64,000 bases of DNA, from positions 992,001 through 1,056,000 of the forward strand of contig NZ_CP046956.1 of assembly GCF_017792025.1 (NCBI RefSeq), in the 5' to 3' direction. Source of the stretch: Sediminibacillus dalangtanensis (GTDB lineage: Bacteria > Bacillota > Bacilli > Bacillales > Amphibacillaceae). Each line of letters begins with the position of its first letter. Within the stretch, counting starts at the first letter, position 1. This document shows positions 1,997 to 48,125 of this stretch, in pieces. Made by a program: the position numbers and the translations under genes. The notes under the pieces are model-generated. The model ran no database searches and had not been told where the DNA came from. It worked only from the letters and a program-made list of their open reading frames with translations.

Positions 1997-2102
1997 GGAA
2001 ATACCCTGCGCTTTCCGCGGGCGGCTGGTGAGCTTCCTCGAGCTAACGCTCTGCGGGATCTCACCGAGGCCTTTCCTCCCGCTGGAGTCTCCGGGTATTT
2101 CC
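1997..2102 (+). repeat. Structured repeat family 1, copy A (forward)
   Basis: A ~106-bp element is enclosed by a perfect 10-bp inverted repeat GGAAATACCC / GGGTATTTCC. Inside are the family blocks GCTTTCCGCGGGC (left) and CCCGCTGGAGTCTCC (right) around a central hairpin with GAGC/GCTC at its tip. Related copies lie at 2417, 47657 and 48012. It sits in the long gene-free stretch 1888-2697, which otherwise holds only copy B. The 73-codon frame at 2375 overlaps copy B and is not a credible gene. Confidence 0.8.
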
Positions 2103-2416
2103 TTCGCTAGGACCAGCTTTCTGTATCTGATGGGGGTATTGCCCTTTTCCACTTGGAAACAAGATTCTTTATTTTACTAACAAATATTAGTTTGGGCTGT
2201 CTGTTATAAGAGCTTGACTGGAAGAAGCAGAGCCAGCCTTCAAAATTAGGTTTATTCGTTTTCCTTTAGGGGCAATTTGCTTCCTACCTGCCGATAAATA
2301 TTCTCAGAAGCTGCAAATTTTCTGTTATTCAAGATAGATTTCTGATAAAAAAAGTACTCAGAAAGGTCTAACACGTGGTATTCCTAACCAAATTCAGAAA
2401 TCACCACCAGCGGAGT

Positions 2417-2526
2417 CAGAACACGGAGACTCCTAAGGGAACAGAACGTGTCCGAAGACCCCGCAAAGAAGCGTTCTTTGCTTCTGCGGAGTCTGAGGCC
2501 GTGCCCATGGAAAGCGAAGTGTTCTG
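2417..2526 (-). repeat. Structured repeat family 1, copy B (reverse)
   Basis: Same family as copy A but in reverse orientation. The outer stem is CAGAACAC / GTGTTCTG, different in sequence from copy A but again complementary. The apical hairpin is GAAGC / GCTTC flanked by CCCGCA / TGCGG. The conserved blocks GGAGACTCC and GCCCATGGAAAGCG are recognisable. Confidence 0.8.
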
Positions 2527-2697
2527 CCGCAGCGAGGTTTTTCACTCATCCATCATCAGAATAAAAGAGTTACTGCGTAGTTTATTTTTATTGTAACAAA
2601 AGCAACTCCTTTTCCAATTTATAAAAATAGGCACATCCCCAGGAAATACTCATATAATGTGGGGAAGAGTTTTGAAGAAGGGGAGGAAGCCATTTTT

Positions 2698-3261
2698 ATG
2701 AATGGAAACAAAAACACCGCCCGTGAACCGATGTTGTATATAACCCAGCCCAAAATGGAAAAACCAACTGCCTCCATGCAAACCGACTACCGGACACCGA
2801 GAAAAAAGAAACGTAAACCGGATCGCGGAAGCTCAATAAAGGAGAAAGAACAAAGGAAGCGAAGTAGTGGAAAAGAATTGGAAGCAGAAGCGAATACCTT
2901 GCAAGAATCGGAGCATCCCCCTGCTGAAACGGAAACCATAGAAAAAGAAAAAATAAAAGAAAAAGCACAGCCAGCAGAAGTTTCCGAGAATGAACCGGAA
3001 GCGAAAGAAACGGGAACAAGTCAAAGAACGAGCCGCAAACGGTTTCGGGATATGACAAACGAAGAGAAAATCAACTACTTTGTCGGGCTGCCGAGAACCG
3101 TGCCACGAATGAAATGTGAGGTTGTCACAGACAAAGAAACGCATCGAGGAATCATCTATGACTATCAGGAAGGACTTGTGTACATGAAGACGATCAAGCG
3201 TCCGTTCAAAGCACAAGTCGACCAGGAAACCATCAAAAGTATTAAACTACTTGGATTTTAA
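2698..3261 (+). CDS. cotO: Spore coat protein CotO
   Basis: CotO is a late-acting spore coat protein needed for outer-coat assembly. The start ATG at 2698 follows GGGGAGGAAG; an earlier in-frame start at 2659 lacks a site. The N-terminal two thirds (to about residue 125) is a low-complexity Lys/Glu/Arg-rich, probably disordered linker. The C-terminal ~65 residues, starting near RDMTNEEKINYF and including GLPRTVPRMKCEV and ending LLGF, form the conserved CotO domain. The position after fabI and facing cotZ matches the B. subtilis arrangement. Confidence 0.88.
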   Translation: MNGNKNTAREPMLYITQPKMEKPTASMQTDYRTPRKKKRKPDRGSSIKEKEQRKRSSGKELEAEANTLQESEHPPAETETIEKEKIKEKAQPAEVSENEPEAKETGTSQRTSRKRFRDMTNEEKINYFVGLPRTVPRMKCEVVTDKETHRGIIYDYQEGLVYMKTIKRPFKAQVDQETIKSIKLLGF

Positions 3262-3268
3262 GCAAGAA

Positions 3269-3297
3269 AAAGTCCGGCCGTACCCGACCGGACTTCT
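3269..3297. terminator. Bidirectional terminator between cotO and cotZ
   Basis: Inverted repeat AAGTCCGG / CCGGACTT between convergent genes, with A-rich sequence on the left and T/C-rich on the right. Confidence 0.75.
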
Positions 3298-3323
3298 TTC
3301 TATAAGATGGAGTGCTGTAAAAA

Positions 3324-3779
3324 TTACAAAGCGCTGATGGCTGGCAGACAAGTAACATGGCAGAAGCAGTTCAAGTCTACAGTGATGCAAATTCCAGTTA
3401 CTTCTAGATGGCTGGTGTCCTGGTCAACTGGAGATTTTGGATCATCGTCGTGATCGTTTGGCTCACGCAGCAATTCCAAAACCGCGCAACAGTCGTCATC
3501 CACACTTTTTACCCGGAAATAGAAACTGCTGGTTGCATCGCCTAAATCGTCGGATGGCACACCAAATCCTTTGAAAGGCTTGCAGCTCCCTTTGCAGTAT
3601 AGAATAACCGGTACTGTATCCAACCCATTGTTGCTAGGGTCGTTACCGCCTAACAGGTCGCTGATGGATTGCTCACAGCTGGTGGTACAATCAGAAAGTA
3701 CATCGGACTGTGCATCGGAGATTTCCCTCAGGATATCGCATACACAGCTGCCAGTTTTATAATCACTTCCACAACTCAT
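3324..3779 (-). CDS. cotZ: Spore coat protein CotZ/CotY family
   Basis: This 151-residue, cysteine-rich protein (at least 14 Cys) begins MSCGSDYKTGSCVCDIL and has the family pattern DCTTSCEQSI, PVILYCKGSCKPF and CITVDLNCFCHVTCL. CotY and CotZ are crust proteins of the outermost spore layer that self-assemble through disulfides. Only one member is present here, where B. subtilis has two. Upstream on the minus strand, at 3823-3831, CATATTCTA resembles a SigK -10 element, which would fit mother-cell expression, but the -35 is weak. CotY and CotZ cannot be separated by eye. Confidence 0.88.
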   Translation of the reverse strand: MSCGSDYKTGSCVCDILREISDAQSDVLSDCTTSCEQSISDLLGGNDPSNNGLDTVPVILYCKGSCKPFKGFGVPSDDLGDATSSFYFRVKSVDDDCCAVLELLREPNDHDDDPKSPVDQDTSHLEVTGICITVDLNCFCHVTCLPAISAL

Positions 3780-4001
3780 TCTATCTAACCCCTTTCCAAT
3801 GATGATTGACTTTTGTCCTTAATAGAATATGTTCGAAGGGGGTTAGTGTGTGGGCAATTACCATATATATTGTCTTGCCTTTCAGGAAAATTTTTTCGCA
3901 CTTCCTCTTGAACAGGGCGGATGTCTATACCTGAAATTAGACATTCACATAGGATAATAGCGATCAATACTTTACTAATAAGGAGCGCTCATTGGAGAAC
4001 G

Positions 4002-4070
4002 TCCAGCTTATAGTCCTCATCGGCTGCAACTACGAGGGCAGTAGGCGATCCGGGCAGGATGCAAGCTGGA
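4002..4070. repeat. Inverted repeat in coat-gene intergenic region
   Basis: TCCAGCTT at 4002 and AAGCTGGA at 4063 are perfect 8-bp arms around a GC-rich centre, inside an otherwise gene-free stretch (3780-4137). There is no T-run, so it is not a simple terminator. The 60-codon minus-strand frame at 3785-3967 has no coding character that I recognise. Confidence 0.5.
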
Positions 4071-4137
4071 AAGGGAGGGAAGGATAAGGGTCTTTTCCTG
4101 CTAAGTGAGCAGCATTAATAAGGGAGTGAAGAGGAAA

Positions 4138-4374
4138 ATGTCAGAAAAGAAAAAGGTTATTTATGTGAAGGACCTGGTAATCAAAGCGGATAACGTCACC
4201 TTTGAACCACCTCGTCAACCACGGCATCATGTTGATCCATTTTTCGGTCCTAGGAGAATGGAAGCCGAAGAAGTGGGAGAAAAGGAACAAGAAGAGGCAG
4301 TGGAAGCTGTAGAAGAAGAACATGAAGAGCATCACCAGGAAGAGGATGGGAGAAAAGGTTTCTCCTGGATTTAG
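4138..4374 (+). CDS. Small charged protein, probably sporulation/coat-associated
   Basis: I do not recognise the family with certainty. The 78-residue protein starts with MSEKKKVIYVKDLVIKADN, then PPRQPRHHVDPFFGPRR, and ends in a Glu-rich tail (EEEHEEHHQEEDGRKGF). The ATG at 4138 has an AGAGGA site close upstream. The His/Pro/Arg block followed by an acidic tail, and the location directly behind cotO and cotZ, suggest a spore-associated protein. No catalytic motif or membrane segment is visible. Confidence 0.6.
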   Translation: MSEKKKVIYVKDLVIKADNVTFEPPRQPRHHVDPFFGPRRMEAEEVGEKEQEEAVEAVEEEHEEHHQEEDGRKGFSWI

Positions 4375-4378
4375 TATC

Positions 4379-4407
4379 AGAGGGACAGCTGACTTGCTGT
4401 CTCTTTT
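4379..4407 (+). terminator. Terminator after the small charged protein gene
   Basis: Stem GGGACAGC / GCTGTCTC followed by TTTTT, just after the stop codon. Confidence 0.75.
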
Positions 4408-4455
4408 TGTGTATCACTGCTGTCTATGGATTTTTCGTATAAAAGAGGTGAAGGT

Positions 4456-4668
4456 ATGGTCGACAAGTCCGACATCTTTCCGATGAAAAAGAATTTGCAA
4501 ATAATCGAAAAGCATTTACACAAAAATGAAAAATGGCTGCGATTGCCGGAAAAGCATATCGCCGAATTAGAAAGCAAAGCTACTGCCTGGAATACGCAAT
4601 TTCTGAAAGAAATGGATCAGCTGGAAGCCGTCATGAAGGAATTGCAAGATTTTATAGATAAGGAATAA
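4456..4668 (+). CDS. Small coiled-coil protein of unknown function
   Basis: A 70-residue product starts at the ATG at 4456, which is preceded by GAGGTGAAGG. The sequence is helical and heptad-like (IIEKHLHKNEKWLRL ... AELESKATAWN ... LEAVMKELQDFIDKE), consistent with a coiled coil. No known domain is recognised. It lies between two other small unknown genes in the same direction and may belong to the sporulation-type block behind cotZ. Confidence 0.5.
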   Translation: MVDKSDIFPMKKNLQIIEKHLHKNEKWLRLPEKHIAELESKATAWNTQFLKEMDQLEAVMKELQDFIDKE

Positions 4669-4738
4669 GCACTAGAATACTTTTTGGGAAAAGCGGGTAT
4701 AGATGAATAACCAAAGGTAGGAAAAAGGGGTGTAATAG

Positions 4739-5026
4739 GTGGGGTATTTGTTGCCAGTCCCGCTTTATCAGTATCAGGATTACCAGGAGCGTGTAACTAG
4801 AAATGCGCCAAGCCCATTCTATATCGAAGGCGTCTATAAGTCCCACCTGGATACCAAGCATAAACAAATTGAACAAGAAGAAAATAGAAAAACGCAAGTT
4901 GACTGTAAACCTTCAGAAATGAAAAAAGTGCTGTATGCTCCAAGGACCGTCCACAAATCCTATTTAGCAGAAAAGATATACGCTGATGTGACAGGAAAAG
5001 GACGCCATTTTAGCGAAACCATATAA
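4739..5026 (+). CDS. Small protein of unknown function (GTG start)
   Basis: This is a 95-residue product starting at GTG with AAAAAGGGG about 6-8 bases upstream. The N-terminus YLLPVPLYQYQDYQERV is Tyr/Gln-rich and the C-terminal half is basic (APRTVHKSYLAEKIYADVTGKGRHF). There is no membrane segment or signal peptide. The tyrosine content and neighbours make a coat or forespore role possible, but this is inference only. Confidence 0.55.
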   Translation: MGYLLPVPLYQYQDYQERVTRNAPSPFYIEGVYKSHLDTKHKQIEQEENRKTQVDCKPSEMKKVLYAPRTVHKSYLAEKIYADVTGKGRHFSETI

Positions 5027-5109
5027 CCAGACAAAGGGTCCGCTGCGAAGCTGGTGCATAACTGCCCGGCAAGGCGGGCCGTTTAGTTTTGAGAAAAGGA
5101 GCAGGTTAT

Positions 5110-6012
5110 ATGGAATTCCAACCATTAAAAGAAGGGACATGTTACTACTTTGAGGGACCGGTCAATATCGGCTATTTACGGAATGGTGAGGAAGGAATGC
5201 TGATTGATGCAGGGATTGACGCTTCTACCATGAAAAAAGTGTTAAAGTGGTTGAAGCAGGAGGAATTACCTCTCACGCATTTGTTCATTACCCATGCTCA
5301 TTCAGACCACTATGGGGGAGCTAACTATTTGCAAAGCCGGCAGGGGGTGCATACAGCAGCACCGGTCTTGGAAGCGGCGATTTTACAATATCCAATTCTC
5401 GAACCGTTGTATTTGTTTGGCGGGAACGACCCGCTTCCCGAGCTTCGAAACAAGTTTTTGGAAGGGGCTCCGATTCAAATAGACCAAATGATCGATGAAG
5501 GGTTTTGTCAAATCGGCAGTTTTGCTATCGAAGCGATCCTTTTACCAGGTCACAGCTATCATCAACTTGGGCTTCTTTACCAGGAAATTTTCTATGCTGG
5601 AGATAGCTACTTTGGCGAGAAGCAATTGGAAAAACATGGAATCCCTTATCTTACCGATACACAGCTTGCCATGGATAGTTTACATAAATTGAAAGGAATA
5701 ACGTGCCAGGGAGCGGTTCCGGGACATGGGACATATGAAGAGAATTTCCAATCCACTGTTCAGTCGAATTTCGATTATCATGAGCAGCTGCTTGAGTGGC
5801 TTGAGGAAGAAATCGGCAAAAAACCGGATGGTATGAGCCATGAGGATGTAATTGCATCGATGTGCGCCAATTATCACGTGCGGGCTTCGCAGCTGTCACA
5901 ATGGCTATTATTCCGTACAGCTGTCACTGCCTATTTGACCGCTCTTCTAAAACAAAATCGGATAACGAGCGAAATTAAAGATTACCGTTGGTTTTTCAAG
6001 GTTCTCCGCTGA
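5110..6012 (+). CDS. MBL-fold metallo-hydrolase
   Basis: A 300-residue metallo-beta-lactamase-fold hydrolase. The zinc-binding signature THAHSDHYGG is at about residues 60-69, with further ligands in LLPGHSYHQLG (about 141-151), the Asp in YAGDSYF, and VPGHG (about 208). The ATG at 5110 is chosen over an in-frame TTG at 5089 because AAAAGGAG lies 7-8 bases before it. The last ~70 residues form a helical region as in many stand-alone MBL hydrolases. The substrate is unknown; glyoxalase-II-like or quorum-lactonase-like activities are possible family roles. Confidence 0.85.
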   Translation: MEFQPLKEGTCYYFEGPVNIGYLRNGEEGMLIDAGIDASTMKKVLKWLKQEELPLTHLFITHAHSDHYGGANYLQSRQGVHTAAPVLEAAILQYPILEPLYLFGGNDPLPELRNKFLEGAPIQIDQMIDEGFCQIGSFAIEAILLPGHSYHQLGLLYQEIFYAGDSYFGEKQLEKHGIPYLTDTQLAMDSLHKLKGITCQGAVPGHGTYEENFQSTVQSNFDYHEQLLEWLEEEIGKKPDGMSHEDVIASMCANYHVRASQLSQWLLFRTAVTAYLTALLKQNRITSEIKDYRWFFKVLR

Positions 6013-6030
6013 TATGGAAACAATTCTTAT

Positions 6031-6075
6031 AAAGGACCTTAAGTCGGCAGTTGTCAGTGTCCGACATAAGGTCTT
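6031..6075. terminator. Bidirectional terminator between convergent genes
   Basis: Long stem AAAGGACCTTA..GTCGG / CCGAC..TAAGGTCTTT between the MBL hydrolase and the SDR gene. Confidence 0.85.
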
Positions 6076-6084
6076 TTGCTGTCT

Positions 6085-6855
6085 TTAGCTTGCTCCCATA
6101 CCACCATCAATTCTATATTGGGCACCAGTTATAAAACTGCTGTCCTCCGATGCGAGAAATAGGACAAGTTTTGCAATATCACTGGATTCTCCATAACGGC
6201 CCAACGGGATATCCTTCATGAAATCATCTTTGGCCACATTGGCATCACTCGGGTTAGCACCAGCTTCTAATGAGCGCATCATACGGGTATCTACAGGTGA
6301 TGGATGGATAGAGTTGACTCTTACATTGTGTGAGGCAACTTCCAATGCGGCTGTTTTCGTAATACCTATAACTGCATGTTTGGAAGCAACATAAGGGGCG
6401 ACACCGGGACTACCCATCAAGCCTGCCACAGAGGAAGTGTTAATAACGGTACCGCTGTTTTGTTTTATCATTACTGGGAGGACATGCTGCAAACCGAGAA
6501 AAACGCCGCGAACATTGACACTCAAGACCTTGTCTAGATCCTCGATTTGTTGATCTACAATCGGTGCCACTTTTCCTTCGATCCCGGCATTATTGAAAAA
6601 GATATCAATCGAACCAAATTCGCTGACGGTTTTGTCAACATAGTTCTTGACGTCTTCCTCTTTCGATACATTTGCTGGAATGGTTAGTACGTCACCGAAA
6701 GATTTTAACTCTGTCTTTGCCTTGTTAAGCGTTTCCTGATTTAAATCCACTAAAGCAACCTTGGCTCCTTCTTCCAGAAAATACTGAGCGGTCACTTTCC
6801 CGATACCGCCTGCTCCGCCAGTGATAATTGCCGTCTTTCCATTTAATCTGCCCAT
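6085..6855 (-). CDS. SDR-family oxidoreductase
   Basis: Classical short-chain dehydrogenase/reductase of 256 residues. The cofactor motif TGGAGGIG is at residues 12-19. Asp37 in ALVDLNQ suggests NAD preference. NNAG follows at about 88-91, the catalytic Ser is in INTSSVAG, and YVASK (about 155-159) supplies Tyr and Lys. The C-terminal GAQYRIDGGMGAS is typical. An AGGAGCGATCGT-type site precedes the ATG. The substrate is unknown. It is transcribed towards the MBL gene and stands alone. Confidence 0.88.
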   Translation of the reverse strand: MGRLNGKTAIITGGAGGIGKVTAQYFLEEGAKVALVDLNQETLNKAKTELKSFGDVLTIPANVSKEEDVKNYVDKTVSEFGSIDIFFNNAGIEGKVAPIVDQQIEDLDKVLSVNVRGVFLGLQHVLPVMIKQNSGTVINTSSVAGLMGSPGVAPYVASKHAVIGITKTAALEVASHNVRVNSIHPSPVDTRMMRSLEAGANPSDANVAKDDFMKDIPLGRYGESSDIAKLVLFLASEDSSFITGAQYRIDGGMGAS

Positions 6856-6998
6856 TTACGATCGCTCCTTTTGATGTAGTTCCATTGGCTTCCTTCCATT
6901 CATTCTTGTAGTAAATTTTCCCTATTCCTAATCCAATAAACATAGAGCTAGAGAAAATCTGGAAAGCACCAAATCAAAAGGAAAGGCGAAGAATTTAA

Positions 6999-7676: not shown

Positions 7677-7794
7677 TTTCACAACCCCCCTAGCGTTCTT
7701 TTTTATCCTTGCCAATTATCAGGGGGGGCATACGGAAAAAGGGGTATAAAACAGTTCCTGGTTTCATGATCTGCGGAAGGAGAGGGCTATAAAA

Positions 7795-7819
7795 AAACCT
7801 TGCCGAAAAGACAAGGTTT
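7795..7819 (-). terminator. Terminator of the yjcG-yjcF unit
   Basis: Stem AAACCTTG / CAAGGTTT read on the minus strand, followed by a run of T just after the yjcF stop. Confidence 0.85.
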
Positions 7820-7827
7820 CATCGTAC

Positions 7828-8250: not shown

Positions 8251-8253
8251 TAT

Positions 8254-8772: not shown

Positions 8773-8994
8773 GAATATTCCTCCTGTATGATTGGTTTAC
8801 GTTAGGCAATATTGAATAGCTTGGTATTTTGATTGATCATGTAGCTAATTCCAATTCGGTTACCAACCATTATATCAAAAATTGGTAAAACGGGCGTAGC
8901 CTAAATTAGTGAAAATGCACAAATTTAAAAAAACGCTGCTTGGAGCCCTGGCAAAGGATCTTCGCTGGTAAATCGTAAGGTTGCTTATACACTG

Positions 8995-27195: not shown

Positions 27196-27236
27196 AGTCA
27201 AGATAATACGCTTTCCAAGGGCGCGGCTTCAACTTT
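27196..27236 (+). repeat. Structured repeat family 1, truncated left half (copy F)
   Basis: AAGATAATACGCTTTCCAAG and GGCGCGGCTTCAACTT match the left arm of the family-1 element, but the right arm and closing stem are missing. It lies in the gene-free stretch 27112-27438, which also holds a terminator. Confidence 0.5.
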
Positions 27237-27340
27237 CCTCCGAATACGAAGTACGTGTACTATTCAAATAACCTAAGGGTAGGCTTGAGAGCTGGACAGC
27301 ATCCTGCCAGATTATATAAAACTTATTACCACAAAAAGAA

Positions 27341-29050: not shown

Positions 29051-30391
29051 ATGACCAAGAAAATCGATAAAGATATGGTAGAGGCTTTTTCGAATAGTCT
29101 CTATAATGATCCGCAAAACCAGGTGATAAAGGATGCGATCATGAAAAACGGCATCCAGGCTTCGATTCAGAACAATGATTCGGTTGTAGCGATGAATCAC
29201 GTGTTTTCGGAGGAAATCAAAACGGGAAAAGTGACCAATCAAAAGCAAAGTGGACGCTGTTGGATGTTTGCGGCATTGAACACATTTACACACAAATTGA
29301 ACGATTTGTTTAATCTCAAGGATTTTGAGCTATCGCAAAATTATACGAATTTCTGGGATAAGTTCGAAAAAGCAAATTACTTTTTGGAAAACATACTGGA
29401 TACAGTGGAGGAACCATTGGATGGAAGGTTGGTTTCCTGGCTATTAGATACCCCGCAGCAGGACGGCGGGCAATGGGATATGTTCGTTTCGTTGATTGAT
29501 AAATATGGGGTCGTACCGAAACAAGTGATGCCGGAAACCTTTCATAGCAGCAATTCTTCTCAATTGAATCAGCTGTTGGACGCCTCTTTGCGCAAGGATG
29601 CCGTTGAACTTCGCAGACTTCATGGAGAAGGCAAACCGGAAGCGGAGCTACAGCAAGTAAAAGAGGGGATGCTATCGAACATTTATACCTTGCTTGTTTA
29701 TGCTCTCGGTGAGCCTCCTGAGACGTTTGATTTTGAATTCAGGGACGAAGATCATGGCTTCCATCGCGAAGAAGGTATAACCCCGCATGCATTCTTTGAA
29801 AAATATGTCGGGATCAACCTTCATGATTATGTAAGTGTCATTAATGCCCCGACAGAAGATAAGCCATACGGAAAAACGTATACCGTTTCGCGGCTGGGCA
29901 ATGTGATCGACGGAACATCGATCAAATATTTAAATGTCGATATGAAGACGTTGAAAGAGCTCGCCGTCAAGCAAATCAAGGATAATGAAAGTGTCTGGTT
30001 CGGCTGTGATGTCGGTCAGGACTCCAATCGGAAAGAAGGGATCATGGATACTGCTCTATTTGATTATGAACAGGCATTCGGCTTCTCGCCTGGGATGTCG
30101 AAAGCGGAACGGCTTGACTTTAAGGACGGACTGCTGACACATGCTATGGTGTTGACGGGGGTCAATCTCGTCGATAATAAACCAAATCGATGGAAGGTTG
30201 AGAACAGCTGGGGAGAAAAAGTAGGCGACAAGGGCTACTTCGTGATGAGTGATGAATGGATGAACGAATACACTTATCAGGTAGTCGTACACAAAAAATA
30301 CTTATCAGAAGAACTGAAGCAAGCCTGGGATCAGGAGCCAGTGGTCTTGAAGCCGTGGGATCCTATGGGGTCGCTTGCTGTTATGAAGTAA
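29051..30391 (+). CDS. pepC: Aminopeptidase C (bleomycin-hydrolase family, C1)
   Basis: A 446-residue cytoplasmic cysteine aminopeptidase that trims N-terminal residues from peptides. The catalytic triad is visible: Cys70 in SGRCWMFAALN, His364 in LLTHAMVLTGV and Asn385 in VENSWGEKVGD. The fold-specific helix ELSQNYTNFWDKFEKANYF follows the Cys. GGGGAGG precedes the ATG. A TATAAT-like -10 lies near 29010. The C-terminus LAVMK is the family's usual carboxy tail. Confidence 0.94.
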   Translation: MTKKIDKDMVEAFSNSLYNDPQNQVIKDAIMKNGIQASIQNNDSVVAMNHVFSEEIKTGKVTNQKQSGRCWMFAALNTFTHKLNDLFNLKDFELSQNYTNFWDKFEKANYFLENILDTVEEPLDGRLVSWLLDTPQQDGGQWDMFVSLIDKYGVVPKQVMPETFHSSNSSQLNQLLDASLRKDAVELRRLHGEGKPEAELQQVKEGMLSNIYTLLVYALGEPPETFDFEFRDEDHGFHREEGITPHAFFEKYVGINLHDYVSVINAPTEDKPYGKTYTVSRLGNVIDGTSIKYLNVDMKTLKELAVKQIKDNESVWFGCDVGQDSNRKEGIMDTALFDYEQAFGFSPGMSKAERLDFKDGLLTHAMVLTGVNLVDNKPNRWKVENSWGEKVGDKGYFVMSDEWMNEYTYQVVVHKKYLSEELKQAWDQEPVVLKPWDPMGSLAVMK

Positions 30392-30401
30392 AGAAAAAAT
30401 T

Positions 30402-30475
30402 GGCCGGGACAAAAGCTTGGCCACCAAAGCAATACCGAGCGAATTCTAAATGCTATTCGAATTCGCTCGGTTTAT
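30402..30475 (+). terminator. pepC terminator with GGCCGGGACAAAAGC tract
   Basis: Eleven bases after the pepC stop begins GGCCGGGACAAAAGCTTGG with CCACCAAAGCAA, then the stem ACCGAGCGAATTC / GAATTCGCTCGGT and TTTATTT. The same tract occurs in inverse orientation at 48183-48253 and in part at 47541. Confidence 0.8.
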
Positions 30476-30487
30476 TTAATGAAATAG

Positions 30488-31212
30488 AAAACCCCTGGCT
30501 ATGCCGGGGGTTCCGGAGAGCTTACAGCGTGGTAATAAAAAAACCTCTCTTCATGGTAGGATAAAGTTGGTTTCCCGACCACTTCATCTCACCAAAGAAG
30601 GAGGTATGCCCTTTGAAGGACATGAATAGTTTAGCACATACAACATGGAATTGTAAGTATCACGTAGTCTTTGCTCCCAAGTACAGAAGACAAATCATTT
30701 ATGGAAAGTATAAAAAGAGTATAGGGCAAATTATAAGAGATTTATGTGAACGGAAAGGTGTAATCATCCATGAAGCAAATGCCTGTCCGGATTACATCCA
30801 TATGTTAGTCAGTATTCCACCCAAGCTAAGTGTATCTCAATTTATGGGGTACTAAAAAGGAAAAAGCAGTCTGATGATATTTGATCGGCACGCTAATTTG
30901 AAATATCTATATGGGAATCGGAAATTCTGGTGTCGAGGTTTCTACGTTGATACAGTGGGCAGAAATAAGAAACAAATCCAAGAATATATAAGAAATCAGC
31001 TAAAAGAAGATTATATGGCTGATCAGTTAACCTTGTTCGAAGAACATGACCCATTTACAGGGAAAAAAATCGGAAGAAATAACGAAATTATTTAGAATTA
31101 GTGAGTGAATGTGGTGCAGGCGGGAAACCTTTTCGGTGGGCCTTTCAGGCTGAGGCCGGTAACAGAGGCTTTCAGCCACAGAACAAACCACCAGTTCACA
31201 CTGGTGGTTTTG
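30488..31212 (+). mobile_element. IS200/IS605-type insertion element
   Basis: A Y1-transposase gene is flanked by sub-terminal hairpins: CCCCTGG / CCGGGG at about 30492-30509 and AAACCACCAG / CTGGTGGTTT at 31185-31210. There are no terminal inverted repeats or target duplications, as expected for this single-strand transposing class. Exact ends are estimates. It lies directly behind the pepC terminator. No tnpB-like accessory gene is present. Confidence 0.8.
30613..31095 (+). pseudogene. tnpA: IS200-type TnpA transposase with one internal stop
   Basis: The frame starts at TTG behind GGAGGTATGCCC and reads MKDMNSLAHTTWNCKYHVVF, APKYRRQII, HEANACPDYIHMLVSIPPK (the HUH-like histidine region) and SQFMGY. 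It meets TAA at 30853-30855, then continues in the same frame as KGKSSLMIFDRHANL ... KKQIQEYIRNQL. In relatives the stop position is a Leu codon, so one base change (TTA to TAA) accounts for it. The catalytic Tyr is in the second part (IQEYI), so the truncated product would be inactive. Confidence 0.85.
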
Positions 31213-33088: not shown

Positions 33089-33255
33089 ATTGTCAAGGTA
33101 AATAATCACCACGTAACTCCTGTTTATTTAGCGATTTCTTTCCTCTAAAAAAATAGGAAAATGGTGTTTTTGGTATATCGAGTTATTTTATTGGAAAACG
33201 GTTAAAAATGATTAATTACCATTTTGTGGAGGGGTCAATAGTTATTGAATATGGT

Positions 33256-33660
33256 TTAGTTCCTCGTTTAACTTCCTAAACTGATTTTTGAAATAAAGGT
33301 AAAAGCAAATAAATCCAGCGCACCGCATATAATGTCAGCGTTATAACAAGGAATAACAGCATGCTTGATGTTCCAGTTGGAATCCAGCAAAATCTAATAG
33401 GTAAGCACAAAGTAAACAACTATGACGGTGAAAGTGAAGGATGGTCTGCTCGATTTGTGATAAAGTCCTGATTTCAAAATAAAGAAGTTTCACAGAAAAT
33501 CCATCCGCATAATATAGAGACAAGCGATTTTTTAGGAAAAGCCACCCCCATCGAGTACTTTTTCATCTCCAAAATACACCAGAGTATTAGTAGCCAATAC
33601 GGCAATAAATGCACCAAAAAAGATGTCAATCAAGCTTCTGAATAAAAAGGTTTTCACTTT
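33256..33660 (-). pseudogene. Decayed copy of DUF3021 membrane protein
   Basis: The sequence aligns base by base with the intact DUF3021 gene at 35347-35760, but stops and small length changes break the frame. Surviving pieces include YFEIRTLSQIEQTILHF, matching YFEIRSLSLFQQTGLHF of the intact copy. The RBS region AGGAGGGATAAAAAG of the intact pair is also duplicated. Confidence 0.8.
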
Positions 33661-33955
33661 TTATCCCTCCTGTTCATTTTTAATATGGAACTGATTACTG
33701 ACTTAATAACGAGATGCATATTCCTTCGCCCGGATTTGAAGTGGACACAAAGTGTGCCGTTGAAGGTTGTTTCGAAGTGGCTGATTTTAAAAAGATTTAC
33801 GACAAACGACTTGGAAATCCTAATAAACCGGTCCCTAGGCAGAGTTTGGTCCATTTCATATAAATTTTCTTTGACCTATTCCTGCTGGGGTTGCTGCCAG
33901 GACTGTATCCCGTTCTGATTGAAAATAATAAACCTCCTCTGGTTTCAAAATATGT
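33654..33955 (-). pseudogene. Decayed copy of LytTR regulator
   Basis: It matches the C-terminal two thirds of the intact LytTR gene at 35757-36218: DQTLPRDRFIRISKSFVVNL and FETTFNGTLCVHFKSG survive. The upstream part is frameshifted and then lost where a degenerate family-1 repeat begins near 33951. Confidence 0.8.
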
Positions 33956-34062
33956 TATTGCTCCTCGTTTTTCCCTTTCGAGCTGAAAATCAACTTGGAA
34001 AAGCGCTTTTCTTTACCAAGTTATCTGTAGCCGTGATCGCGGAAAACGAATTACCTCGCCGT
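33951..34062 (-). repeat. Structured repeat family 1, degenerate copy E
   Basis: On the minus strand TTCGTTTTCCGCGATCACGG, then AACTTGG with CCAAGTTGATTTTCAGCTCG match the family-1 core, including a central hairpin CTTGG/CCAAG. The outer stem is no longer complementary. It interrupts the decayed LytTR copy. Confidence 0.6.
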
Positions 34063-35346: not shown

Positions 35347-35760
35347 TTATTCAACATGCTGTAGCTCCTCGTTTAGCTTTCTGGACTGATTTTTAAAATA
35401 AAGGTAAAAACAAATCCAGATCACTGAATACAAGGCCAGTGTTATCACTAGGAATAACAGGATACTGGATGTTCCGGCCGGAATCCAGCCGATTTGATAG
35501 GCCAGTACAAAGTAAGCAGCCATGGCCGTAACGAAGTGAAGCCCGGTTTGCTGAAATAGCGATAAAGATCTGATTTCAAAGTAAAGCGGGGTAACTGAAA
35601 ATAACCATCCACAAAATATTGATCCAAGCGAATTTTTTAGGAAAAGTCCCCCGTCGAGTACATTTTCCCCTCCGAAATACACCAGAGAATTAGTAGCCAA
35701 TACGGCAATAAATGCACCAAAAAAGATGCCAATCAAGCTTCTGAATAAAAAGGTTTTCAC
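35347..35760 (-). CDS. DUF3021 membrane protein
   Basis: A 137-residue protein with four hydrophobic segments (about residues 5-27, 40-60, 70-90, 100-122). The motif LVYFGGENVLDGGLFLKNSL and the end YLYFKNQSRKLNEEL are typical of DUF3021. Its start overlaps the LytTR stop by 4 bases (ATGA-type coupling). In Bacillaceae and lactic acid bacteria this membrane protein accompanies LytTR regulators, and may act as their membrane partner. Confidence 0.85.
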   Translation of the reverse strand: MKTFLFRSLIGIFFGAFIAVLATNSLVYFGGENVLDGGLFLKNSLGSIFCGWLFSVTPLYFEIRSLSLFQQTGLHFVTAMAAYFVLAYQIGWIPAGTSSILLFLVITLALYSVIWICFYLYFKNQSRKLNEELQHVE

Positions 35761-36218
35761 TTTTTATCCCTCCTGTTCATTTTTAAAATAGATCGGATAT
35801 TACTGACATAATGCCGTGAAGCATATTCCTTCGCCCCGGATTTGAAGTGGACACAGAGTGTGCCGTTGAATGATGGTTCGAAGTGGCTGATTTCATAAAG
35901 ATTTGCGACAATGGACTTAGAAATTCGGATAAACCGGTTCTTAGGAAGGATTTGATCCAGTTCATATAATTTTTCTTTGACCTTGAAGAAACCTGCTGGG
36001 GTTGCTGCCATGACTGTATCTCGTTCCGATTGAAAGTAGTAAACCTCTTCCGGTTTTAAAATATGTTGTTGATCCCCGTTTTTCCCGATAATAAAGTTTG
36101 TTTTTCTGTTCTCCAGGAAATCGAGAACTTGTTTAATCGAATCGTCGATTTCCCTGCATTGGATCGTAACGGTTGTACCTTTATGATTACGATCCACATC
36201 CAATAACACCTTCACCAT
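35757..36218 (-). CDS. LytTR-family DNA-binding regulator
   Basis: A 153-residue protein: a short N-terminal part (MVKVLLDVDRNHKGTTVTIQ) and a C-terminal LytTR DNA-binding domain (about residues 50-150: LKPEEVYYFQSERDTVMA, YELDQILPKNRFIRISKS, PSFNGTLCVHFKSG). There is no receiver domain, so it is not a classical response regulator. The start at 36218 follows AAAGGAGGGG. It is translationally coupled to the DUF3021 gene. A decayed copy of the pair lies 2 kb away. Confidence 0.88.
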   Translation of the reverse strand: MVKVLLDVDRNHKGTTVTIQCREIDDSIKQVLDFLENRKTNFIIGKNGDQQHILKPEEVYYFQSERDTVMAATPAGFFKVKEKLYELDQILPKNRFIRISKSIVANLYEISHFEPSFNGTLCVHFKSGAKEYASRHYVSNIRSILKMNRRDKK

Positions 36219-41322: not shown

Positions 41323-41604
41323 AACTGATAAGAAGTAATGATTTCATGATTATACTGTTCCAGTCCCTTCCGTCTACTTTTCTGAAAAATCTTCATTCCA
41401 TCATATATGGCAATAGACCGCCATCGTGTGTCTTAAGCTAACCATTTGGAAGAGCTGACTTCCCTTTACTTATCCCCATATCCTCCAGTACTTTATTTCT
41501 TGTATATTACGAAAAAAAAGAAATAGTTATTTAAAGAGATGTTGTAAAAAAACATGAAAATAGCCTGCGCCTGCGTAATCACGATTCAGGAAGGGAGGAT
41601 AGAT

Positions 41605-43104: not shown

Positions 43105-43345
43105 ACAGATGAATCCTTCTCCATTTTCAAAAGAAGAAGAGGATTGGCTGATTCTTGCAATCGAGTATTATATGAAGCAAACTGAAATGCTGACAGAAGA
43201 ATAGGTGCACTCACTCCTGCTGTTAAGTAACCTTCAGGTAACCATCTTACCCGTAAGTGCGGTCTTCCCTTTCTTTTTTTGCTTCGATAGAATAAACAGT
43301 GCGGGTTCATTCCGTAAGCTGTAAAGAAGGAAAGGGAGGATTTTG

Positions 43346-43858
43346 ATGAGTAAAAAAATCGCGGTTTTAGTTACTGATATGGTGGAAGAAATCGAATTGA
43401 CGGATCCAGCCGAAAAATTTAAGGATGCCGGGCATACTATTGAACTAATCGGGCAAGAAGCCGGGAAACAAATCACTGGTAAAAATGGAGATTCCTTTAC
43501 GATTGATAAAGGAATCGAGGAAGTATCCGCTGACTCCTTTGATGCATTATTGGTACCTGGAGGTTTTTCTCCTGACTTGTTGCGTATCGATGAACGGAAT
43601 GCGGCTTTCGCACGTTCTTTTTTTGAATCTAAAAAACCCGTATTCGCGATTTGCCATGGCCCTCAGTTCTTAATTGATACAGATCAACTCAACGGATTGG
43701 ATGTGACAGGCTTTACTTCCATCCGGAAAGATTTGATCAATGCAGGTGCCAACTTCAAGGATGAGGAAGTAGTAGTGGATCAAAATCTTGTTACCAGCCG
43801 TACACCGGATGACCTTCCAGCATTCAACCGTGAGGCACTGAAGCTGCTTGAAGGGTAA
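43346..43858 (+). CDS. yfkM: General stress protein 18, DJ-1/PfpI family (YfkM-like)
   Basis: A 170-residue DJ-1/PfpI-fold protein. Cys103 in FAICHGPQFLI is the nucleophile elbow, Glu15 region (VTDMVEEIELTDP) provides the acid residue and His104 follows the Cys. YfkM of B. subtilis is a SigB-dependent general stress protein with this length; protease or deglycase activity is debated for the family. The ATG at 43346 (not the TTG at 43343) is spaced from GGGAGG. No clear SigB promoter was seen upstream. Confidence 0.88.
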   Translation: MSKKIAVLVTDMVEEIELTDPAEKFKDAGHTIELIGQEAGKQITGKNGDSFTIDKGIEEVSADSFDALLVPGGFSPDLLRIDERNAAFARSFFESKKPVFAICHGPQFLIDTDQLNGLDVTGFTSIRKDLINAGANFKDEEVVVDQNLVTSRTPDDLPAFNREALKLLEG

Positions 43859-43867
43859 CGAAGTAAA

Positions 43868-43900
43868 AAGAACAGCCTAACACCACGGGCTGTTCTTTTC
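43868..43900 (+). terminator. yfkM terminator
   Basis: AAGAACAGCC / GGGCTGTTCTT stem plus TTTC tract. Confidence 0.85.
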
Positions 43901-43914
43901 TTTACTGTATAGAA

Positions 43915-44150
43915 AATGATAAATTTAACTGTCTGTATATAATTATTGGCAGAAACAGCCACGTCCAGCTCCAGCGCCTACCCCTCGAGGTCTTAACCCC
44001 CCCTCTGTGTAGCAAAAAGCGCCACGCCGAGGCTGTTCTTTAGCTTGTCGGAGGCTCAAACGATTGTGGGTCATGCAGGCGTTGCCACAGGACGTGGCGG
44101 CCTGTACACCTTTAAACAGGCGCTTGCGTTTTTGTCCTAAATCGATGCCG
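43915..44150. repeat. Dispersed repeat family 2, copy R1
   Basis: About 230 bp nearly identical to 62515-62745. Landmarks are CCACGTCCAGCTCCAGCGCC, TACCCCTCGAGGTCTTAA, CTCTGTGTAGCAAAAAGCGC, GCCGAGGCTGTTCTT and TTTAAACAGGCGCTTGCG. No ORF is conserved between copies (the frames differ by small length changes), so it is non-coding. It fills the gap 43901-44184. Confidence 0.88.
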
Positions 44151-44184
44151 GACTTTTGTCTAAGGTGCAACAATTATAAATTGT

Positions 44185-44568
44185 TTATGACTCTTTCACA
44201 ATACCTTCTTCTTTTAGCTGATCGATCCGTTTTTTCCCCCACTCATACATCTGTTCGATGATGGGCAATAACGTATATCCAAGTGCTGTCATTGAATACT
44301 CCACTTTTGGAGGCGTCTCTGGATATACCTTCCGTTGAATTATGCCGTCCTCTATCAATTCTTTTAATTGATTGGAAAGGGTTTTATGGGAAATGTTTTT
44401 GAAGAGTCGTTCCAAATCACTAAAACGATGGGTTCCTTCCACGCCTAAATGCCATAAAATTACCACCTTCCATTTTCCGCTAATGATGGAAAGGGTTAAC
44501 TCTTTTTCACAATGATAATCCCCGTTCTCCAGCTTTGTTTTTATTTCTTCCCGCAATGTATTGCACAT
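44185..44568 (-). CDS. HxlR-family transcriptional regulator
   Basis: A 127-residue winged-helix protein: SIISGKWKVVILWHL, GTHRFSDLERLFKNISHKTL, then LKELIEDGIIQRKVYPETPP and VEYSMTALGYTLLPII are the HxlR signature. The start at 44568 is seven bases from GGAAGGAAG; a longer frame upstream lacks a site. It lies 123 bases behind the MFS gene on the same strand and probably controls it. HxlR proteins often sense electrophiles or redox change via Cys; Cys2 and Cys19-20 are candidates. Confidence 0.88.
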   Translation of the reverse strand: MCNTLREEIKTKLENGDYHCEKELTLSIISGKWKVVILWHLGVEGTHRFSDLERLFKNISHKTLSNQLKELIEDGIIQRKVYPETPPKVEYSMTALGYTLLPIIEQMYEWGKKRIDQLKEEGIVKES

Positions 44569-44691
44569 GGGTAACTTCCTTCCTGGTTCAATAGGTTTTA
44601 TTCCTATAGAATAATCTGTTTCTATTGTTAGTTCAATAACTAAACTTCGAACGCCTCGATAAATGAAAGGCATTTTCGAAAAAGAGAAAGA

Positions 44692-45843
44692 TCAGATATG
44701 CTGCAACTTCCCATTAGAGGAACGCAATCTTGTATAGCCGGCAATTGTCAGCACCGTCATGCTGACAAGAAATGCGATAAAGTACGGCGATATGGAATCA
44801 CGGACCACCCCTGTAAAAAAAGAGCTGCTGATGATACCCAGCGAGTAGATAGCCGACATAAAACCAAATGCTCTGCCATGGCTTTGTTTGCTTGTATTGT
44901 CTGTGACTGCTGTTGCCATCGCAGGCATGACCAAGCCGGAGAAAATACCAAGGAAAAACAATAATACTGCCAGAGGAAGAACCGATGTGAAAATACCTGC
45001 CAAGGCCATCGCCATTCCAAATAAACCGATGACTAGACGTTTAAAGGGGGAGAAGCGATTGACAAAAAACATTGACAACATCAGTAGAGTGCCAATGCCC
45101 ATATAACTGAACAGTCTGCCAGTATCAAAAGTAGATAACCCATTTTCTACGGCTAAATATGGTACTTCGTAAATGACGACCCCGTGTACATACATGGCCG
45201 CAAACCCGATCAGATAGACAGCGATTAATTTGGGATTCGTTTCAAACTTAATGGTAGCATTCGATGGGGAAAGGGAAACTACTGGTTTCGTTTCCTTTAA
45301 GGAACGTGCAGCATAAAGCCCGATAGCCAGCATGGTACTGCCGATAATCCAATAAGTGTTTTGATAACCAATGAGGACAACCAGCTTACCGCCGATCAGT
45401 GGGGCGGCAATACCAGCAATGGTAGAAAACAGTCCGTTGATCGCCATATTTTTTCCTTGCTGTCTGCTGTTGTCGGCGAATCCGGAAAGCATGGTAAAAG
45501 CTGCAGGAATCAAAAATGCCAGAGCAAAACCATTCAGGGCATGCAAAACCAACAAGTCGCCAGAATCATTGGCGAAGGCATGGGCAATAAACAACAACCC
45601 AGAAGCAAAAATAGGCAGTGTGATGAATAGTTTTTTACCAAGCCGGTCGATTAACGGGCCGGCGAGAACATTGCCGGATAAATTGGTGAATGAGGTAACA
45701 CTCAGGATGATGCCGATAAAAACGCTGGTTGCTCCGAATGCTGCCGCATATGGTGTGAATACGGGAACCTGAACTCTCATTGCTAAACTGATAAAAAACA
45801 AAACGATAAAAATGTGCCATTTATTAGCTGTAGTTTTTTTCAT
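44692..45843 (-). CDS. MFS transporter
   Basis: A 383-residue major facilitator protein with 12 predicted helices. The motif-A loop is AGPLIDRLGKKLF (about residues 61-73) and motif C-like GIAAPLIGGKLV follows. The repeated loop between helices 6 and 7 is basic/acidic (SLKETKPVVSLS). Drug or sugar efflux is typical for this type but no substrate can be named. The start lies at TTTCAC/GAGGTGAG (AGGTGAG site). Confidence 0.85.
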   Translation of the reverse strand: MKKTTANKWHIFIVLFFISLAMRVQVPVFTPYAAAFGATSVFIGIILSVTSFTNLSGNVLAGPLIDRLGKKLFITLPIFASGLLFIAHAFANDSGDLLVLHALNGFALAFLIPAAFTMLSGFADNSRQQGKNMAINGLFSTIAGIAAPLIGGKLVVLIGYQNTYWIIGSTMLAIGLYAARSLKETKPVVSLSPSNATIKFETNPKLIAVYLIGFAAMYVHGVVIYEVPYLAVENGLSTFDTGRLFSYMGIGTLLMLSMFFVNRFSPFKRLVIGLFGMAMALAGIFTSVLPLAVLLFFLGIFSGLVMPAMATAVTDNTSKQSHGRAFGFMSAIYSLGIISSSFFTGVVRDSISPYFIAFLVSMTVLTIAGYTRLRSSNGKLQHI

Positions 45844-45983
45844 TTTCTCACCTCGTAAAACTTTATGAAGGAGAGGTAAGAATTAGACGAGCAATTGGTT
45901 CCAGCTTGTTTTTATAAATCCAATGTAAACTTTGTTAAGTCTGCTGATTAGGATATTTTATCTAGGCCCTCGAAACAAGTCTT

Positions 45984-46041
45984 TCATCCAGGAAAACCAG
46001 ACTAACTTTTCTAGTCCTTTATAAGTCGGAAAACTGGATGA
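45984..46041. repeat. Inverted repeat upstream of the alkaline phosphatase gene
   Basis: TCATCCAG at 45984 and CTGGATGA at 46034 are perfect 8-bp arms with a further AGACTA/TAGTC mini-hairpin inside. It is part of the 323-base gap 45844-46166. Confidence 0.5.
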
Positions 46042-46092
46042 GGGAGTAGCTGCATAGGCCTATTCAATCAAAATTACAGCAAATCGACATTT

Positions 46093-46120
46093 TTACGTTC
46101 TATTTATCTTTCTTCAATAA
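46093..46120 (+). promoter_or_regulatory. Candidate PhoP box
   Basis: Three hexamers at an 11-base period, TTACGT, TTATCT, CAATAA, resemble weak PhoP direct repeats (consensus TTAACA, 5-base spacers). The position ~50 bases before the phosphatase start fits Pho control. Confidence 0.35.
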
Positions 46121-46166
46121 AACCAGATTAATATATTACTTGAAATCATAATTTGGAGGGAAACCT

Positions 46167-47522
46167 ATGAATAACAAACGCATGTTAAAAAGATTGGCAG
46201 TTCCACTAGTGATAACAGGAGTAGCCCTGGGAAGCTTATTTACCTTCTATACTCCATCGGAAGCGAATCAAGAACAAAACCATGCAAAAGTAAAAAATGT
46301 TATTTTTTTGATTGGTGATGGCATGGGACCTGCCTATAACACGATGTACCGTTACTTGAAAGATGATCCAAGTACACCAATGATGGAGTCTACTGCCTTT
46401 GATTCTTACTTGGTGGGGATGCAAAAAACCTATCCCCACGATCATGAAGAAAACATTACGGATTCTGCTGCTGCTGCAACTTCCATGGCTGGCGGAGTAA
46501 AGACATACAATGGTGCGATTGCAGTCGATACAGAGAAGCAAGATGTTAAAACAGTGCTTGAGCAAGCAAAAGAACAAGGAAAGTCGACTGGTTTGGTCGT
46601 GACCTCCCAGGTCAATCATGCGACACCAGCTGCTTTTGGTGCGCACGATGAATCCAGGCAAAACTATAATCAGATAGCCGATGACTACTATGATGATTTA
46701 GTAAATGGCCAGCATAAAGTGGACGTACTTTTAGGCGGCGGAACAAGCTATTTTGAACGGGAAGACCGAAATTTGGTAGAAGCATTTCAAAAGGATGGGT
46801 ACAGTTATGTAACCAGCCGTAAACAACTGCTGAAGGATGATCATAATCAAGTTTTAGGGTTGTTTGCCCCGGTAGGAATGGACAAAATGATTGATCGAAA
46901 CGCATCCACTCCCTCTTTAGCTGAAATGACTAATTCTGCTCTTGATCGTCTGAGTAAGGATAAAGACGGTTTTTTCCTTATGGTTGAAGGAAGTCAAATT
47001 GATTGGGCAGGACACGATAATGATGTGGTTGGGGCTATGAGTGAAATGGAAGACTTCGAAAAAGCATTCAAAGCAGCGATTGAATACGCAAAGAAAGACA
47101 AGCATACCCTGGTAGTTGCCACAGCTGATCATTCTACGGGAGGATTGTCTATCGGAGCTAATGGCCCGTATGTTTGGAATCCGGCGCCAATAAAGGCGGC
47201 AAAACGAACTCCGGATTATATGGCACAGGAAATAACGAATGGTGAGCCAGTGAGATCTGTGTTGGATAAATACATTGATTTAGCTTTGACGGAAGATGAG
47301 ATTCAATCAGTGGAAACAGCAAGCCAAAGCGGAGAGGTAACGGATATCGACAATGCCATTGAAGCGATATTTAACGAGCGATCTGGAACTGGCTGGACTA
47401 CAGGCGGACATACTGGTGTCGATGTGAATATCTACGCATATGGACCGGGTTCTGACCAATTTGCTGGTTCACTGGAAAATACAGAAACAGCTGAGAAACT
47501 ATTCGACTTTTTACGTAATTGA
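46167..47522 (+). CDS. phoA: Secreted alkaline phosphatase
   Basis: A 451-residue PhoA/PhoB-type alkaline phosphatase releasing phosphate from organic esters outside the membrane. It has a signal peptide (residues 1-33, ending TPSEANQ). Metal ligand Asp51 is in FLIGDGMGP and nucleophile Ser100 in TDSAAAATSMAGG. Further ligands lie in SQVNHATPAAFGAH, VEGSQIDWAGHDND, TADHSTGG and the final TTGGHTGVDVNIYA. The start follows TTTGGAGGG. It is probably induced by phosphate starvation. B. subtilis has two such enzymes; the symbol is generic. Confidence 0.92.
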   Translation: MNNKRMLKRLAVPLVITGVALGSLFTFYTPSEANQEQNHAKVKNVIFLIGDGMGPAYNTMYRYLKDDPSTPMMESTAFDSYLVGMQKTYPHDHEENITDSAAAATSMAGGVKTYNGAIAVDTEKQDVKTVLEQAKEQGKSTGLVVTSQVNHATPAAFGAHDESRQNYNQIADDYYDDLVNGQHKVDVLLGGGTSYFEREDRNLVEAFQKDGYSYVTSRKQLLKDDHNQVLGLFAPVGMDKMIDRNASTPSLAEMTNSALDRLSKDKDGFFLMVEGSQIDWAGHDNDVVGAMSEMEDFEKAFKAAIEYAKKDKHTLVVATADHSTGGLSIGANGPYVWNPAPIKAAKRTPDYMAQEITNGEPVRSVLDKYIDLALTEDEIQSVETASQSGEVTDIDNAIEAIFNERSGTGWTTGGHTGVDVNIYAYGPGSDQFAGSLENTETAEKLFDFLRN

Positions 47523-47540
47523 ATAACAAGCTGAATATCC

Positions 47541-47603
47541 TGAGACAAAAGCATCATGACCAAAATGAAAACCGAACGATACCACCATTCGTTCGGTTTT
47601 TTT
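47541..47603 (+). terminator. phoA terminator with GAGACAAAAGC tract
   Basis: GAGACAAAAGCATCATGACC followed by the stem AAAACCGAACGA / TCGTTCGGTTTT and T-run, 19 bases after the stop. It is the partial sister of the elements at 30402 and 48183. Confidence 0.82.
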
Positions 47604-47656
47604 GATGAGCAAAAAGCAAAACGTTTTACACTATGAAAAGTGCAACTTTCCACTCC

Positions 47657-47770
47657 GGCAAGGTACTTCGCTTTCCGCGGGCACGGCTTCAGCTAACTTG
47701 GCAAAGAATACCGCTTTGCCAAGTGGATCTTCAGCTCGCGCTCATCCCGCTGGAGTCTGTGTACCTTGCC
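47657..47770 (+). repeat. Structured repeat family 1, copy C (forward)
   Basis: Outer stem GGCAAGGTAC / GTACCTTGCC (perfect 10 bp). The core has TTCGCTTTCCGCGGGCACGG, GCTTCAGCTAACTTGGC and CATCCCGCTGGAGTCTG. The central hairpin ACTTGGCAAAG / CTTTGCCAAGT is a perfect 11-bp stem. Part of the gene-free region 47604-48182. Confidence 0.88.
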
Positions 47771-48011
47771 TCCGTTGGATGGAGATATCTTCTCTTCAGG
47801 TGTGTTTTTCGTTTTGCCTATTCATGTTACGGATAGAAAGCGAAGCCGCATGGAAACCAGGAGTACTTCTTTAGCCAATTTATGCTATAAAGAAAAAAGG
47901 CCCCCCAAGCCTTTCGTCTTCGTCACTGTTTAGATACCTATCAACCAATAGAAGAGAACGGTCCATCTTGTCTTGATCATATGGAAATCAGACCACGAAA
48001 ACATAGCGAAG

Positions 48012-48125
48012 GCAAGATACGGAGACTCCTACGGGAATAGCACGAGCTGAAAATCCCGCAATAAAGCGTTTTTTTAACTTTCTGAGGAAGTTGAAGCCGT
48101 GCCCGTGAAACGCGTAGTATCTTGC
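48012..48125 (-). repeat. Structured repeat family 1, copy D (reverse)
   Basis: Outer stem GCAAGATAC / GTATCTTGC, with GGAGACTCC, GCACGAGCTGAAAATCCCGC and GCCGTGCCCGTGAAACGCG as the reversed core blocks. It is inverted relative to copy C, 240 bases away. Confidence 0.85.

Follow-up and report, generated by a model that had tools for sequence, protein, structure and literature searches.

Paired covarying hairpins of about 110 bp as probable subterminal parts of small transposable elements in Sediminibacillus dalangtanensis

Hairpin-forming sequences of about 110 bp recur between the genes of Sediminibacillus dalangtanensis. In the stretch of DNA analysed here (64,000 nucleotides of contig NZ_CP046956.1, positions 992,001 to 1,056,000 of the forward strand, hereafter the window), one pair of these hairpins is flanked on one side by a short-chain dehydrogenase-type gene and on the other by a CotO-type spore coat gene, and a second pair separates two convergent genes, of alkaline phosphatase and AsnC-regulator type; each pair is carried by a larger composite element with ends of its own (elements 1 and 2; Table 1). 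An original prediction, made from the sequence of the window, had described the four main copies and interpreted them either as a non-coding RNA or as a transposable single-stranded DNA element. A covariance model, R1, found all four where they had been placed, with 97.8-110.2 bits, all four being among the 22 sequences used to build the model; the complementary arms described for them were present in every copy, and their pairing held by sequence and by fold. We propose that the 110-bp units are probably DNA hairpins in a subterminal position within small, non-autonomous transposable elements (miniature inverted-repeat transposable elements, MITEs), which in the group of element 2 are of IS1182 type.

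Table 1. Hairpins, composite elements and associated features in the window (positions counted from its first letter).
Feature	Position	Strand	Sequence features	Basis or score
Hairpin F3	1997..2102	+	arms GGAAATACCC / GGGTATTTCC	covariance model R1, 110.2 bits; folded
Hairpin F5	2415..2528	-	arms GGCAGAACAC / GTGTTCTGAC	R1, 101.4 bits
Hairpin F1	47657..47770	+	arms GGCAAGGTAC / GTACCTTGCC	R1, 105.5 bits
Hairpin F2	48011..48126	-	arms GCAAGATAC / GTATCTTGC	R1, 97.8 bits
Half copy, F2-type 5' half	27199..27250	+		recognised by sequence
Degenerate F1-type copy	33951..34060	-		fold
Composite element 1, F3..F5 type	1934..2588		ends GATAGAAATTGCGACATAG / reverse complement of AAATAAACTACGCAGTAAC	sequence
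Composite element 2, F1..F2 type	47539..48252 (about)		IS1182-type ends CCTGAGACAAAAGC / GCTTTTGTCCCGGCC	
Terminator-like stem, inward from left end of element 2	47568..47603	+	AAAACCGAACGA..TCGTTCGGTTTTTTT	W 1039541 +, score 12
Weaker terminator-like stem, inward from right end of element 2	48176..48222	-		W 1040248 -, score 8
Bacillaceae-1 RNA RF01690	62658-62724	-		Rfam; weaker match at ~44055-44116

The core of the hairpin matched the 4.1-Mb single-contig genome 196 times with at most one mismatch, compared with 3 matches for the reversed control pattern. The subfamilies differ chiefly in their outer arms (F1 GGCAAGGTAC, F2 GGCAAGATAC, F3 GGAAATACCC, F4 GGTAGCATAC, F5 GGCAGAACAC and F6 GGAAAAACAC). 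An apparent one-strand run of exact core matches between 1.06 and 2.83 Mb was a listing artefact, exact minus-strand matches being present there. The model found matches in 113 of the 120 family genomes searched, representing 44 of 46 genera, and, at class level, in 70 of 250 genomes (26 of 106 genera); at the level of individual loci, R1 was run on L211-L290, that is, on 80 of 117. When the F1 hairpin served as the query, a single match turned up among 72,556 plasmid records and none among phage records, and the listed matches of the 14-mer core to viral contigs, one per contig, were judged mostly to be chance and were not used. Of the two lesser copies suggested for the window, the half copy is recognisable by sequence and the degenerate copy can be folded, but neither reached E<=1 in the model search. 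At the half copy, S. dalangtanensis DNA is about 250-270 bp longer than that of two relatives. That copies lie only between genes is nearly correct, with 10 of 70 matches falling mostly within open reading frames (ORFs) of at least 100 amino acids by a crude ORF call. As separate observations, a multi-block direct repeat in the window (33242-33975 and 35347-36086, 84-93% identical, spaced by about 2105 bp) is probably a tandem gene duplication, and a short element (CAAGGAAGGCT... or reverse) has apparently been inserted at a similar spot inside hairpins of different subfamilies, with sites at about 1238517-1238917 in the S. dalangtanensis genome, at 2396-2530 of locus L265, and in the related genome G023 at the site corresponding to window position 1997.

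The mobile unit is larger than 110 bp and comprises two hairpins, sometimes one. Of neighbouring model matches less than 700 bp apart, 56 of 58 face each other and 2 are in tandem (21 and 1 in S. dalangtanensis, 35 and 1 in other species), which makes the two opposite-orientation pairs of the window examples of the usual close arrangement; by the model, a facing partner was present for 112 of 191 matches. Facing hairpins are separated by an inner distance of 78-313 bp in S. dalangtanensis and 41-566 bp elsewhere, and the S. dalangtanensis composites are non-coding, about 600-750 bp long and bounded by inverted ends. Among the pairs examined, subfamilies combine in a fixed manner (F1 with F2; F3 with F4, F5 or F6), and elements of one type are alike in the DNA that separates and flanks their hairpins (17 pairs compared). 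The ends of F1/F2 elements carry TGGGACAAAAGC and those of F3-type elements GATAGAAACTGCGACATA. An independent search for the F3-type end motif gave matches in 36 of 159 family genomes, as against 1 match for the reversed control, and in 30 loci, one per genome, a hairpin core followed 57-94 nt further in at 21, of which 13 had a facing core as well. Elements of the element 2 type are multi-copy, with about 700 bp between the ends and no transposase ORF seen; a search for end pairs using long patterns returned few pairs. A 438-amino-acid ORF between facing hairpins at locus L257 was considered as a transposase and rejected, its translation resembling a GTPase and the hairpins being taken as unrelated neighbours. 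In genome G145, elements of about 280 bp that are 96-97% identical in five stretches (L449-L453) have just one hairpin and one terminator-like stem, together with a GAGGCTGGGACAAA end; they are a recently active one-hairpin form.

The end of element 2 shares TGGGACAAAA with IS1182-family transposons. Of the 30 best matches to the IS1182 transposase model NF033551, taken one per genome, 18 are flanked on either side, within 500-600 bases, by a GGCTGGGACAAAA end with at most 2 mismatches, compared with none of 300 random stretches of the S. dalangtanensis genome. A hairpin stands directly before the transposase gene in 9 of 11 PF05598 loci of genomes G091 and G023, with the end motif about 80 nt outside the hairpin in five of those nine; of the remaining two, L411 contains hairpins of F1/F2 type instead, and the only hairpin at L413 belongs to a neighbour. 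At loci L424 and L447, a hairpin lies between the end and the transposase gene, and in Sporosarcina luteola (L236) one hairpin lies on each side of a truncated IS1182 gene (NF033551, E 3.8e-45, under the full-length cut-off of the family), the second by core match only. The association of hairpins with IS1182 genes is weak when judged by counts, and the case is carried by the position of the hairpin inside the ends. An IS1182 gene between facing hairpins at L422 was rejected as an autonomous parent, because its own ends lie inside the second hairpin and it is therefore an insertion into that hairpin: the element occupies L422 1001-3165 with ends AGGAGTCTGTCCGACG, within the second 110-bp hairpin of a composite, which is consistent with the use of hairpins as targets. 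The GATAGAAACTGCG-type ends of F3-type elements look unrelated to those of IS1182 type. Pieces of an IS1595-type transposase gene inside an F4..F3 composite (L322, 4291-5719) were likewise considered as an autonomous partner and are probably nested.

Presence and absence were assessed by alignment to 400-kb orthologous stretches of three same-genus genomes, and several composites were found to be present in one species and absent from others. Element 2 is absent from all three, and in the two that align tightly (G063 and G023) a plain intrinsic terminator occupies the site. Of 13 available comparisons of F1/F2-type elements, 6 were too loose; in all of the 7 tight ones (both flanks aligned within 24 nt; 4 loci), the position of the element is taken in the other species by a terminator-like hairpin and its T-run. 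Because this hairpin is missing from the occupied site, the terminator was replaced and not interrupted. Elements of this type in turn bring stems of their own: an inward-reading terminator-like stem lies between the end and the hairpin at 24 of 29 F1/F2-type ends, compared with 15 of 100 random 110-nt control stretches, and scores of at least 10 were obtained at 16 of 29 ends compared with 3 of 300 controls, as scored by a purpose-written script (a scan with loops <=8 caught only part of the terminators). Judging from their sequence, these built-in stems may stop transcription. Intervals between convergent genes hold 23 of 70 hairpin matches and make up 191 of the 1101 gene intervals overall. 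At the site of element 1, G023 has F4..F3, the reverse order to F3..F5 in S. dalangtanensis, and at position 1065067 the F3..F6 of S. dalangtanensis corresponds to F3..F4 in G063 and G023; occupied sites thus persist, with halves swapped or inverted.

The inference of structure from compensatory change was borne out. In an alignment of 22 diverse copies, preselected mostly for a clear arm match, the consensus structure has 33 pairs, and 93.5% of 720 cells are paired, compared with 71.8% after shuffling and <=54% with slid partners; two-sided changes occur in 25 of the 33 pairs, including all ten outer pairs, and the arms are complementary without being conserved. This preselection is biased towards paired arms, and we therefore counted again in the matches that the model itself had found, first 193 and then 248 (71 from S. 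dalangtanensis, 122 from other species and 55 from the same genus), whose alignments are structure-fitted and lean towards pairing. The outer stem cells of the 248 matches comprise 1947 Watson-Crick, 53 G-T, 74 A-C and 177 other combinations. When neighbouring copies were compared across loci (154 pairs from the 209 of 248 matches with complete arms), 137 arm changes were compensatory and 171 one-sided, and two-sided differences numbered 189, compared with 49 expected under independence. At orthologous sites, by contrast, 14 changes were one-sided and 2 compensatory in a small sample of 11 comparisons, both of the 2 coming from doubtful orthologues. Arm pairing therefore seems to be kept in spreading lineages and lost at fixed sites, as far as the small orthologue sample indicates. 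Complementary arms could also arise as a by-product of DNA repair, with template switching within the palindrome copying or erasing arm mutations and the covariation having no function; direct changes from one Watson-Crick pair to another with few wobble intermediates, as well as compensatory change despite near-identical interiors (22 cells, 58 pairs, similarity at least 0.96), are what such repair would leave behind. Local repair should, however, act at orthologous sites too, where the few changes sampled are mostly one-sided, and we consider this explanation unlikely.

Structured RNA tolerates G-U pairs and does not tolerate A-C, and the inner helices were counted in the same way. Helix 2 has 244 G-T and 26 A-C cells, which become 28 and 26 without one mostly T-G column (216 of 235 cells). 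Helix 3 has 160 and 97, one column contributing 125 G-T (of 236 cells) and another 68 A-C, and without its first and last columns the numbers are 32 and 29; helix 4 has 15 and 29. In a tRNA control from the same DNA (19 of 24 distinct tRNAs, with at least 10 of 12 pairs formed), G-T exceeded A-C by 15 to 1, a figure that is only indicative, since the filter favours G-U. The covariation is thus strong but not RNA-like. An independently transcribed family of structured non-coding RNAs would explain the strong covariation, the sequence-conserved internal segments and the two mostly T-G columns. Apart from those columns, though, there is no general preference for G-T over A-C; an Rfam scan of the window at the gathering score returned only a tRNA and Bacillaceae-1, with no match on the hairpins; the facing pairs lie inside elements with their own ends; and their presence varies among close species. 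Together with the mostly one-sided loss of pairing at orthologous loci (again a small sample), these results leave the RNA half of the original prediction very unlikely.

Its other half was right in that a transposable element is involved, as the larger unit and its insertion polymorphism indicate, but the 110-bp unit is not itself the mobile element, and the evidence points away from the single-stranded DNA type. A single-stranded DNA (HUH/Y1) element, such as a REP/RAYT or IS200/IS605 derivative, would fit the imperfect hairpins that lie close to the two ends and frequently form inverted pairs. It would also fit the three Y1 transposase (PF01797) matches in the genome, of which the one in the window, at about 30643-30999, contains an in-frame stop. 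Such an element is nevertheless very unlikely: inverted ends of IS1182 type, the use of target hairpins as insertion sites and the presence of IS1182 genes in some elements all indicate a DDE transposase, and none of the composites was seen to contain a Y1 gene, no systematic search for linkage having been made.

Bacterial MITEs such as Correia, RUP and bcr1 are short, non-coding, mostly intergenic, high in copy number and bounded by inverted ends, and the hairpin composites are alike in these respects; unlike them, the composites have modular paired hairpins, covarying stems and a position on terminators. The elements IS1272 and TnSha1 of the IS1182 family were reported by Furi et al. 2016 (PMC4923244) to insert into hairpins, of which many are terminators and several have been confirmed as such, and to delete part of the target hairpin without duplication. 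A survey of insertion sequences (PMC9208149) lists IS1182 among the families over-represented between convergent genes. Elements of the element 2 type resemble IS1272/TnSha1 in that they have IS1182-type ends (by comparison with the NF033551 loci, not with IS1272 itself) and insert at terminator hairpins, with target DNA lost in the tight comparisons; they differ in having no transposase and in carrying covarying 110-bp hairpins and inward terminator-like stems, and the available portions of the description of IS1272 (PMC4923244) mention no such internal hairpins. Bhal-1 of Bacillus halodurans is likewise a stem-loop repeat of a Bacillaceae genome (74 bp and 36 copies, as tabulated in PMC2267715), the likeness being one of description. 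No paper on the 110-bp hairpin family was found in the open-licence literature. The kind of element, a MITE, and the targeting of terminators by IS1182 are known, whereas the paired covarying subterminal hairpins and the built-in terminator-like stems are new.

A typical element of the S. dalangtanensis genome is laid out as an end repeat, a terminator-like stem (in the IS1182 type), an inward hairpin, about 80-310 bp of filler, a second inward hairpin, a further terminator-like stem and an end repeat. In the proposed mechanism, a transposase of the IS1182 family, which either came from another source or has since disappeared from this genome, would have put element 2 onto the intrinsic terminator between the convergent genes; the target hairpin would have been lost, and the inward-reading terminators of the element would have taken over. 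The outer stem would be kept complementary in lineages that move and would decay after insertion, a pattern that fits a signal read as DNA, whether hairpin or cruciform, during transposition. The identity of the transposase for these copies and the reading of the hairpin during transposition are what we infer, as are the mobiliser of the 1934-2588 type and the hairpin's own function.

Several results weigh against this interpretation. A facing partner is missing for 79 of 191 matches, some of which lie at contig or locus edges and some of which are single-hairpin forms. Only 2 of the 30 best IS1182 loci (L424 and L447) have an internal hairpin, most IS1182 elements having none, and the hairpin is therefore not required. 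No NF033551 match to an IS1182 transposase was found in the S. dalangtanensis genome or in G063, although the F1/F2 copies of S. dalangtanensis look recent. No transposase is known for GATAGAAACTGCG-type ends, those of the window's first pair, the 30 end-motif loci not having been scanned for transposase ORFs, and beside such elements, including that first pair, the terminator is still present. Terminator replacement is read from folds, and the argument is one of exact position, without a control for terminator frequency in matched intergenic DNA. At the S. luteola locus, the target terminator has been duplicated and not lost, a copy standing on either side with one mismatch between the two, and the outcome at the target is accordingly not uniform. 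The orthologue comparison is small, and the two mostly T-G columns would be accepted by an RNA reading as well.

Beyond the MITE interpretation itself, IS1182-type transposition may read DNA hairpins twice, as targets and as paired subterminal signals of its own MITEs; the covarying stem would then be a DNA-level signal, and a terminator-swapping family would mend its own damage by bringing terminators with it. This broader proposal is tentative, and we regard it as doubtful.

Among other features of the window, Bacillaceae-1 RNA (RF01690) is, like the 110-bp hairpin, a high-copy sequence in S. dalangtanensis, and closely behind its window copy comes GGGACAAAAGC, which is also the end motif of element 2; the RNA differs from the hairpin in sequence and fold (67 positions). 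The table of PMC2864571 rates it as certainly an RNA. There are 94 matches in the S. dalangtanensis genome (E<=0.001), compared with 5-23 in four same-genus relatives, and they lie on the minus strand in 49 of 54 cases below 1.95 Mb and on the plus strand in 35 of 40 above. Both window copies sit behind a terminator-like hairpin, and 6 of 29 copies in the stretches examined are no more than 500 bp away from a 110-bp hairpin, compared with a mean of 1.5 for random placement. RF01690 looks like a mobile element with a strand bias. At 30381-30480, a GGGACAAAAGC end stands on its own, accompanied by a terminator-like stem; this inverted match to 48224-48272 directly precedes the stop-interrupted Y1 (IS200-type, PF01797) transposase gene mentioned above.

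If the MITE interpretation is correct, one of the commonest repeats of this group of bacteria, present in nearly all family genomes examined, would be a transposon end and no longer a candidate RNA. Covariation tests can then be strongly positive for DNA elements, and hence screens for structured RNAs would need a check of wobble pairs and of orthologues. That elements carrying terminators take the place of terminators suggests a way in which many insertions are tolerated and in which the signals at gene ends turn over.

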